NCBI GenBank assembly: GCA_014859105.1 | Contig: JACUUX010000015.1 | Span: forward strand, 1 to 53,370 | From: Nitrospirota bacterium | GTDB taxonomy: Bacteria > Nitrospirota > Thermodesulfovibrionia > Thermodesulfovibrionales > SM23-35 | Direction: 5' to 3' | Length of the DNA stretch: 53,370 bases | Shown here: positions 46,413 to 49,169 of the stretch, one piece after another | Layout of the letters: every line of letters starts with the position of its first letter | How positions within the stretch are numbered: position 1 is the stretch's first letter | The notes under the pieces: model-generated | Seen by the model: the letters and a program-made list of their open reading frames with translations, nothing else | Databases searched by the model: none | What the model was told of the DNA's origin: nothing | Position numbers and translations under genes: made by a program

Positions 46413-46495
46413 AAAATTATCCTCCAGATTTCTCTCAAGCATTATATCAAAGTTCAGGATATTGCATAGAAAAACTTAGAAATGATTCGGGCATA

Positions 46496-46508
46496 TTGTC
46501 CTGAACAA
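46496..46508. promoter_or_regulatory. palindromic operator candidate, cobO-proximal copy
   Basis: TTGTCCTGAACAA is a TTGT-N5-ACAA palindrome within a 19-bp sequence (46492-46510) that recurs, inverted and without mismatch, at 46623-46641 next to sod. Degenerate copies are visible at about 46517-46533 (CCTGTCTGAATAA) and 46452-46465 (GTTCAGGATATTG). Confidence 0.6.
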
Positions 46509-46614
46509 AAGACAAATTTCCTGTCTGAATAAAGATTTTTATTATTGAAATTTCAGTAAAATCAACAAGTTGATATTTTGGCATTTCTCTTGCTTCTACT
46601 AATATTAAAAAGTT

Positions 46615-46620: not shown

Positions 46621-46624
46621 GGTT

Positions 46625-46637
46625 TTGTTCAGGACAA
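46625..46637. promoter_or_regulatory. palindromic operator candidate, sod-proximal copy
   Basis: TTGTTCAGGACAA, the exact inverse of the cobO-proximal copy, begins 4 bp after the TATAAT box and therefore overlaps the predicted start of sod transcription. That position is typical of a repressor site. The binding protein is unknown. Confidence 0.6.
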
Positions 46638-46695
46638 TATGTTAATAAAGCTAAGATAACCTTGTAACAGAAATAAAAAACAGGAGGTAAGTAGC

Positions 46696-47274
46696 ATGGC
46701 TTACACTGCAAAAGATTATTCCGTGCTTATAGGCATGGAGGGATTCAGTGAAACTCTTTTAAAAAATCACTTTACTCTGTATCAGGGATATGTAACGAAT
46801 ACAAATAAAGTGCTTGACGCTCTTGATCAGTTGTTGAAAGAAGATAAAGCAGGAAATCCGGAATTCGCTGAACTAAAGAGGAGGCTCGGATGGGAATTCA
46901 ATGGCATGCGGCTGCATGAATACTATTTTGAAAACCTCGGTGGAAAGTCACCTCTTGATAAAAATGGAAAGTTTGCAAAGAAAATCGCTGAAGACTTTGG
47001 AAGTTACGAAACATGGGAAAAAGATTTTAAAGCAACGGGAGCGATGAGAGGTATCGGCTGGGTTGTCCTGTATCATGATGTTAAAAATGGCAGACTGATT
47101 AATTTCTGGATAAACGAACATGATGTTGCCCATCCGGCGGGTTGCAATCCAATATTGATCATGGACGTTTTTGAACACGCATTCATGATTGATTATGGAC
47201 TCAAGAAAGCCGATTACATCGGGGCATTCTTTAAAAACATCAATTGGACTATCGTGGAGTCCAGGCTGAAATAA
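46696..47274 (+). CDS. Fe/Mn superoxide dismutase
   Basis: Removes superoxide. It has 192 residues with the first metal histidine in LLKNHFTLYQGYV near residue 26, the second in NGMRLHEYYFENL near 74, and the aspartate and third histidine in MDVFEHAFMIDYG. The usual HxxxHHxxYV gate is replaced by HFTLYQGYV. That is a pattern I associate with methanogen and other anaerobe enzymes, though it was not checked. Metal choice cannot be told. No signal peptide. CAGGAGG stands before the ATG, and the DsrC-like gene follows 25 bp after the stop. Confidence 0.95.
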   Translation: MAYTAKDYSVLIGMEGFSETLLKNHFTLYQGYVTNTNKVLDALDQLLKEDKAGNPEFAELKRRLGWEFNGMRLHEYYFENLGGKSPLDKNGKFAKKIAEDFGSYETWEKDFKATGAMRGIGWVVLYHDVKNGRLINFWINEHDVAHPAGCNPILIMDVFEHAFMIDYGLKKADYIGAFFKNINWTIVESRLK

Positions 47275-47299: not shown

Positions 47300-47653
47300 A
47301 TGCCGGTACTTGAGGTTGAAGGAAAAAAAATTGATATAGATGAAGAAGGATATCTCATTAATATGGATGACTGGACCGAAAAGGTGGCCTGCGCACTTGC
47401 TGACAGGGAAGGGGTAAGCAAGACCTGCCCACTTACAAAAGAAAAGATGGAGATATTAAATTTCATGCGGGAATACTACAAAAAGTTTGAAGCTGTTCCA
47501 ATACCCAGGGGGGTATGTTTAAATGTTCATCAACCAAAAAACTGCACGTATGAAGAGTTCCCGGATCCCTTTACAGCATATAAGATTGCAGGACTTCCTA
47601 AACCTGTAGCTTATGGAGAGCTGCATGATTCTATAAAAAAGTACTTTAAGTAA
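47300..47653 (+). CDS. DsrC/TusE-family protein lacking both redox cysteines
   Basis: A 117-residue protein of the DsrC/TusE fold (LEVEGKKIDIDEEGYLINMDDWTEKVACALADREGV, then MREYYKKFEAVPIPRG). In DsrC the C-terminal arm carries CysB (ACRxAGLPKP) and CysA (the penultimate cysteine). Here the same positions read AYKIAGLPKP and VAYGEL, so both are tyrosine. The arm continues 11 extra residues to YFK. Sulfur transfer by the canonical route is therefore unlikely, and a regulatory or structural role is more plausible. Cysteines exist elsewhere (near 31, 43, 73 and 82). AGGAGG stands before the ATG, and it is co-directional with sod. Confidence 0.85.
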   Translation: MPVLEVEGKKIDIDEEGYLINMDDWTEKVACALADREGVSKTCPLTKEKMEILNFMREYYKKFEAVPIPRGVCLNVHQPKNCTYEEFPDPFTAYKIAGLPKPVAYGELHDSIKKYFK

Positions 47654-47707
47654 AACTGCTAATAGAAGAAACCAGATTTAAATTTGAACATAAAGTTATG
47701 CCAAAAG

Positions 47708-48214
47708 ATGAGAGCTCTAATAATAAGTGCAGATAATTTTGAGGATTCCGAACTTCTTGTCCCATACTATACGCTGCAAGAGGAGGGAATCGAGATTGAT
47801 ATTGCTTCTATAAAGAAAGGTTCAATAAAGGGGAAACATGGTTATAAAGTCCAGGCGAATAAGAGTTTGAAAGAAGTTAATCCGGATGAGTACGACGTCC
47901 TTATTCTTCCCGGAGGAAAAGCACCTGAAACAATAAGGAAAGAGAAAACCGCACTTGAGATTGCAAAAAAATTTTTCCAGAGGAATAAGCCAGTCTCAGC
48001 CATATGTCATGGCCCTCAGATTTTGATAACCGCCGGGCTTATGAAAGGGAGAAGATCAACCTGTTATAAATCAGTAGCCGGTGAAATGAAGGAGGCCGGA
48101 GCTATCTATGAAGACAAAGAGGTGGTGGTCGACGGCAACCTTGTTACTTCAAGACAGCCCTCTGATCTTCCCGCATTCATGAGAGAGACTTTAAAGATGA
48201 TTAAGAAGAGCTGA
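47708..48214 (+). CDS. DJ-1/PfpI family protein
   Basis: A 168-residue protein of the PfpI/YhbO group: MRALIISADNFEDSELLVPYYTLQEEGIEID, VLILPGGKAPETIR, and the nucleophile elbow SAICHGPQILITAG with the cysteine near residue 100. Family members are described as stress-related deglycases or cysteine peptidases. I start at ATG 47708; a TTG eight codons earlier keeps the frame but has no family-like sequence. Its place after sod and the DsrC-like gene suggests a thiol or oxidative stress role. Confidence 0.88.
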   Translation: MRALIISADNFEDSELLVPYYTLQEEGIEIDIASIKKGSIKGKHGYKVQANKSLKEVNPDEYDVLILPGGKAPETIRKEKTALEIAKKFFQRNKPVSAICHGPQILITAGLMKGRRSTCYKSVAGEMKEAGAIYEDKEVVVDGNLVTSRQPSDLPAFMRETLKMIKKS

Positions 48215-48260
48215 TCTGTTGCCTATTTTGTCTATGCACTTTATTCATGAAAGGGCAACT

Positions 48261-49169
48261 ATGCACCACGATAAGTCAAAAAAGGTTTTGTTTCTTGTAA
48301 TGGATGCAGGAGAAATTGCGAGAGAAACCGGGATGGGTCTGCAGAAAGTTTCTGAAACCGTAAAACGCGGCATGAGAAAATTATTGGAGGAAAGGAATAA
48401 AAGAAAGGCTCCATTTATCGACAGAACTTTTTATACCTCTTTAAACGGCATGATGATCACTGCATATATGAAGGCTTTCAGGCTATTTAAAAACAGCAAG
48501 CTAAAGGATTTTGCTCTTAAAAGCCTCACCAGGATACTGGAAGATCATTTTATAAATAACGAGCTTCTCCACACAGAAGGAGTAACGGCAATATTGGATG
48601 ACTATATTTATTTGATTGAAGCATTAGTTTCCTCCTATGAAGTCACCGGTGATAAGAATTATTTCAATAAAGCAGATAAACTAATGCAATTATGCATGGA
48701 GAAATTCTGGGATAAAGAACAAGGAGGGTTTTTTGATACAGATAGAGAGGTACTGGGAATAAGGCTCAAGGCTATTGAAGATATCCCTCACCCTTCAGCT
48801 AATGCTCTAAGCATAATTCTCATGTTAAAGCTCCATGCTATGACCGAAAAGAAAAAATACTATTTATATGCACAGGAGTCATTAAAAGCTTTTTCTCTAA
48901 AAGCAAAAGATATAGGGATTCAATCAGGTTATTATTATTGCGCACTCGATGCGTACTTTAATATGATGAAGCTTACCTTGCAAACAAAGCCTGCTGATAA
49001 GCTTGCCGGAACAGCCCTTACCTCTTTTTATCCATACATGAGTATAGTTTATGGAGAAGACAGAGGCTATGCTGTTCCATGCATTAGAGAAACATGCTAC
49101 GAACCTATTAATAAACCGGAAAGTCTTAAAATTTTTTGCCAGATCATCGGTCAGAAGATTTTGAATTAA
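48261..49169 (+). CDS. YyaL/SSP411-type protein, C-terminal part only
   Basis: A 302-residue protein matching only the C-terminal (alpha/alpha toroid) half of the DUF255 YyaL family: GEIARETGMGLQKVSETVKRGMRKLLEERNKRKAPFIDRTFYTSLNGMMITAYMKAF, then TAILDDYIYLIEALVSSYEVTG and FWDKEQGGFFDT. Full-length members have about 650-700 residues with an N-terminal thioredoxin-like domain; that part is absent here, and no remnant is seen upstream, where the PfpI gene lies. I chose ATG 48261 because GAAAGG lies just upstream. It may be a stand-alone module or a truncated gene. Confidence 0.75.
   Translation: MHHDKSKKVLFLVMDAGEIARETGMGLQKVSETVKRGMRKLLEERNKRKAPFIDRTFYTSLNGMMITAYMKAFRLFKNSKLKDFALKSLTRILEDHFINNELLHTEGVTAILDDYIYLIEALVSSYEVTGDKNYFNKADKLMQLCMEKFWDKEQGGFFDTDREVLGIRLKAIEDIPHPSANALSIILMLKLHAMTEKKKYYLYAQESLKAFSLKAKDIGIQSGYYYCALDAYFNMMKLTLQTKPADKLAGTALTSFYPYMSIVYGEDRGYAVPCIRETCYEPINKPESLKIFCQIIGQKILN

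Follow-up and report, generated by a model that had tools for sequence, protein, structure and literature searches.

What does a protein with the fold of DsrC do when it lacks both of the functional arm cysteines, CysB and CysA? The question is raised by a gene in the window, the whole stretch of 53,370 nucleotides that we analysed from a Nitrospirota bacterium (Table 1). Its open reading frame starts with an ATG preceded by an AGGAGG ribosome-binding site. The product scores above the cut-offs of the Pfam DsrC family (PF04358; 71.2 bits, cut-off 24.9) and of TIGR03342 (67.3 bits, cut-off 53.5), and below that of the PRK11508 equivalog model for TusE (53.8 bits, cut-off 191). An AlphaFold model built from a four-row alignment (mean pLDDT 78, pTM 0.73) has its best Foldseek match in DsrC (1sau, E = 1e-6, TM 0.73), and each of the 8 matches with E ≤ 0.001 is a DsrC, gamma-subunit or DsrC-family structure. 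Compared with four relatives the gene has a dN of 0.18–0.24 and a dS of 1.7–3.0, the latter near saturation, and on these substitution rates it is under purifying selection; a dN/dS well under 1 rules out a pseudogene, decay or a chance reading frame. The profile scores, the structural matches and a dN far below dS thus bear out the proposal in the preliminary description that a DsrC fold is maintained here by selection.

To place the protein among its relatives we sampled 395 genomes of the window's phylum. Matches at E ≤ 1e-20 occur in 88 of them, one of which (G282) was removed because its match is a canonical DsrC, leaving 87 genomes that carry the variant; with two more genomes from a family search, these yield 93 distinct variant sequences. 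Judged from this sampling, the window protein is a member of a conserved subgroup and not a one-off. In a quick tree the variants are separate from 18 canonical DsrCs and 3 TusE-type proteins. The phylogeny suggested in the preliminary description sets them apart from both, although it takes two label changes where the minimum is one, in an alignment (sequence L009 left out) with few columns to resolve forks. A scan of genome contigs for the variant gave one locus. None was found in the viral contigs scanned, in which canonical DsrC has 2 loci, and phage and plasmid searches returned 2 records in one case and a best 8 of 14 in the other, all below 60% identity and labelled TusE where annotated. 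No description of the subgroup was found in the parts of the open-licence literature that we searched.

The C-terminal arm of the window protein reads AYKIAGLPKPVAY and then continues for 12 residues after Y105, not the 11 originally counted. In an ungapped alignment Y94 occupies the CysB register and Y105, exactly 11 residues further on, the penultimate CysA register, a position held by cysteine in each of the 18 canonical DsrCs examined. That both arm cysteines are replaced by tyrosine thus holds for the window protein but not for its subgroup. Among the 92 readable arms (L009 was left out because a stop codon truncates it before the arm), the CysB position is tryptophan in 88, tyrosine in 3 and cysteine in 1, and the CysA position is never cysteine and is filled by assorted residues, with tyrosine in 3. 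By these counts the tyrosines themselves are not the key feature, since most relatives have tryptophan at CysB and varied residues at CysA. The arm exceeds the canonical length in 92/92 members, and residues A97, G98, L99 and P100 are retained in 91–92 of the 93 sequences.

The subgroup has a cysteine pair of its own. C73 is present in 93/93 distinct sequences and C82 in 91/93, whereas canonical DsrC has V/I and G/A at these positions and no cysteine in 18/18 cases. That alignment rules out a replacement of CysB or CysA by C73 or C82, a possibility named in the preliminary description as fatal to its reading. The aligned sequences contain a conserved cysteine pair that might form a disulfide, as in a thiol-disulfide redox protein. 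In the AlphaFold model C73 lies within a predicted helix (residues 69–76) and C82 in the loop before the helix at 90–96; within the fold core, the model is least confident about the stretch between them (pLDDT 62–67). A further DsrC-like group was seen in L011, L030 and L031 (genomes G003 and G011), with tryptophan at CysB, an arm of the 'AWKIAGLPQP' type and neither C73 nor C82; G011 has two tandem copies.

Table 1. Positions of the features discussed, in window coordinates unless a locus is named
Feature	Position	Strand	Remarks
Fe/Mn superoxide dismutase (SOD)	46696..47274	+	25 nt upstream of the DsrC-like gene
DsrC-like protein, 117 aa	47300..47653	+	C73 and C82 conserved in the subgroup; no CysB or CysA; 12-residue tail
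Codons 73-82, C-L-N-V-H-Q-P-K-N-C (new cysteine pair)	47516..47545	+	From the alignment of relatives
Codons 94-105, Y-K-I-A-G-L-P-K-P-V-A-Y	47579..47614	+	Arm segment across the CysB and CysA registers
DJ-1/PfpI family protein	47708..48214	+	ATG at 47708, 54 nt downstream of the DsrC-like gene; the ORF listing has a TTG start at 47684
Thioredoxin-like DUF255 (Thioredox_DsbH) protein, C-terminal half	48219..49169	+	4 nt after the PfpI gene
84-aa protein	L069:6570-6824	-	C-x5-C pair; encoded on its own or as part of a DsrC-like fusion

The neighbourhood of the variant is indicative of oxidative stress. The SOD, DsrC-like and DJ-1/PfpI genes follow one another on the same strand of the window, an order shared with a relative (L003) from 'Nitrospirae bacterium isolate L.E.D.9'. 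The DUF255 gene beyond them is missing the thioredoxin half of its full-length relatives; a 684-aa protein from its cluster is encoded at L060, in a relative. SOD matches were found in 76 of the 87 variant genomes, on the same strand within 6 kb of the variant in 34 and elsewhere in the genome in 42, so that SOD is missing from the 6-kb surroundings in 53 genomes, 11 of which gave no SOD match at all. We also counted same-strand neighbours within 3 kb in 66 of the 93 contexts, because the ORF caller retained the variant ORF only in these: SOD appears 28 times, the 84-aa gene described below 13, nitroreductase 10, DUF255 8, PfpI 6 and thiol peroxidase 5. Genes resembling 2-oxoacid:ferredoxin oxidoreductase (assigned by eye) are present in 10/66 contexts, and rubrerythrin-like genes are also among the neighbours. 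For thiol peroxidase, the only match in the window's own genome falls below the family cut-off.

Some relatives are fused to such neighbours. In genome G270 a single frame (L118:2699-3556, plus strand) encodes a 285-aa fusion of a thiol peroxidase with a DsrC-like protein, an arrangement seen once. Another 13 relatives have an N-terminal domain of about 80–100 aa (counted by eye), which at other loci has an 84-aa gene of its own next to the variant. The 84-aa protein has no match above the Pfam cut-off and none in NCBIfam, and its cysteines are well conserved (C60 in 37/37 sequences, C66 in 34/37). With fusions counted in, 33 of 91 places have its gene within 5 kb of the variant, and the gene occurs in 98 of the 395 genomes: 68 of the 87 with the variant versus 30 of the 308 without, in counts that ignore kinship. 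When only dsrA-positive genomes are compared, again ignoring shared ancestry, the gene is in 64 of 81 with the variant versus 25 of 96 without. This undescribed protein is a candidate partner of the DsrC-like protein. In the window's genome the gene is represented by its 3' half only, which immediately follows a rubrerythrin-like gene (locus L158, contig C18, 3300-4500), and therefore the partner may have been lost there; the fragment looks like a remnant.

Variant genomes are also linked to sulfur metabolism: dsrA is present in 81 of the 87, versus 96 of the 308 genomes without the variant (kinship ignored), and has no match in the other 6. As for the 84-aa gene, G282 was left out of this co-occurrence test. 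The window's genome has dsrA and a canonical DsrC (QACRYAGLPKPTGCV) and gives no match for TusD/DsrE. It is thus an instance of the variant accompanying a canonical DsrC, as the preliminary description had envisaged. Some variant genomes, for example G013, G076, G352 and G379, gave no match for a canonical DsrC at E ≤ 1e-25, possibly through assembly gaps. Because neither arm cysteine is present, and because a canonical DsrC and dsrA are found in the same genome, the window protein, as judged from its sequence, cannot act in the known manner of DsrC or TusE.

If not sulfite reduction, then what? The DsrC-like protein probably does redox work, because it has a near-invariant cysteine pair and its gene is often in an operon with oxidative-stress enzymes. 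The earlier proposal of a non-catalytic role finds no support, since the subgroup has its own C73/C82 pair where canonical DsrC has none and lies beside, or is fused to, redox enzymes. The explanation that we tentatively prefer, and to which we give a little under half of our confidence, is that it is an accessory thiol-redox protein in an oxidative-stress module of DsrAB-bearing Nitrospirota-type bacteria, working through C73 and C82. What suggests this is conservation and gene company, from which we infer the chemistry. C73 and C82 would form a dithiol/disulfide (or persulfide) switch, the retained KIAGLPKP arm would dock the protein on its partners, and when oxygen leaks in, the recipient of its electrons or sulfur would be the small C-x5-C protein, or else a peroxidase or some damaged target. 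Against it stand the low pLDDT of the stretch in which the putative C73–C82 bond would form; the variant genomes without SOD nearby (53/87) or with no SOD match (11/87); the co-occurrence counts, which ignore kinship; the single occurrence of the thiol peroxidase fusion; and, in the window's own genome, the fragmentary 84-aa gene and the thiol peroxidase match below cut-off.

The best-surviving alternative, though an unlikely one, is a redox- or metal-responsive regulator in which helix 3, the loop and helix 4 act as a helix-turn-helix switched by C73 and C82, an idea that corresponds to 'RspA'. The two cysteines do bracket a turn, and in the Foldseek search the DNA-binding domains of LexA come second, as a weak match (prob 0.72, E 0.55). 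A perfect 19-nt inverted repeat (46492-46510 and 46623-46641, 112 nt apart) also lies upstream of SOD and could be a paired operator or the ends of a small mobile element; exact copies of its 13-mer core number only two in the window's genome. However, an 11-mer form of the core was not found in the 330-nt regions scanned upstream of the relatives' SOD genes, and a regulator would not usually be fused to a peroxidase. The same fold is found in DsrC itself, which to our knowledge is not generally accepted as a transcription factor. A search for PerR boxes gave 16 matches versus 10.7 expected.

Alternatively, C73 and C82 might bind zinc or an iron-sulfur centre in a structural role, perhaps together with H77, C31 or the C-x5-C pair of the partner. 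H77 (68/93 sequences), C31 (46/93) and the partner's cysteine pair speak for this, but neither residue is strictly conserved and each chain offers only two near-invariant ligands, so we consider a metal site quite improbable. A four-cysteine cluster within one chain is ruled out by the counts for C31 and for C43, which is found in only 8/93 sequences, where the window's own family has a 3-residue insert.

We think it very unlikely that the protein is a decoy or cap for DsrAB, whose retained KIAGLPKP arm would enter the DsrAB channel without cysteines and shield the siroheme site under oxygen. The frequency of dsrA in variant genomes (81/87) and the retention of A97, G98, L99 and P100 would fit such a cap. 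Yet GLPKP is also retained in E. coli TusE, a protein used without DsrAB; 6 of the 87 variant genomes have no dsrA match, the arm is longer than the canonical one in 92/92 members, and C73 and C82 would be left unexplained. A sulfur relay of the TusE type in tRNA thiolation, favoured by the TIGR03342 score above cut-off, is scarcely credible and we reject it, because CysA, given in a passage of PMC3397948 as the sulfur-carrying residue of DsrC, is missing, the window's genome has no TusD/DsrE match, and the variants stand apart from TusE in the tree.

The presence of DsrC is taken to mark dissimilatory sulfur metabolism; because standard models score the subgroup as DsrC/TusE, genomes that carry it may be mis-annotated. 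If the thiol-redox role is true, the DsrC scaffold has been reused for oxygen defence with a relocated thiol pair. The fused or adjacent 84-aa protein provides a concrete candidate for the partner. A broader proposal, which we regard as doubtful, is that the subgroup makes up a third functional class within the DsrC fold. Its members would be thiol proteins of oxygen defence, their redox pair shifted out of the flexible arm into the helix 3–4 stretch, and together with the 84-aa C-x5-C protein and SOD or thiol peroxidase they would tie the machinery for sulfite reduction in anaerobic Nitrospirota-type bacteria to the detoxification of reactive oxygen.

Among known systems, the window protein resembles RspA-type or cysteine-lacking DsrC homologs in having the DsrC fold with arm cysteines lost; these homologs lack one or both. 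Our search of the open-licence literature found no relevant paper on RspA. A passage of PMC8190135 notes a phage DsrC with neither cysteine motif. E. coli TusE belongs to the same Pfam and TIGRFAM families and is also without CysB, which is T in the K-12 protein, but it retains the penultimate cysteine that the window protein lacks and has TusBCD for a partner, of which TusD has no match in the window's genome. With DsrC, the gamma subunit of dissimilatory sulfite reductase (PDB 1sau, 2v4j, 1yx3), the protein has in common the fold and the KIAGLPKP segment of the arm, and it is 35–41% identical, by two programs, to the canonical DsrC of its own genome. Unlike DsrC, it has no CysB or CysA but the pair C73 and C82, a shorter loop between helices 3 and 4, an extended tail and a gene context of the SOD type.
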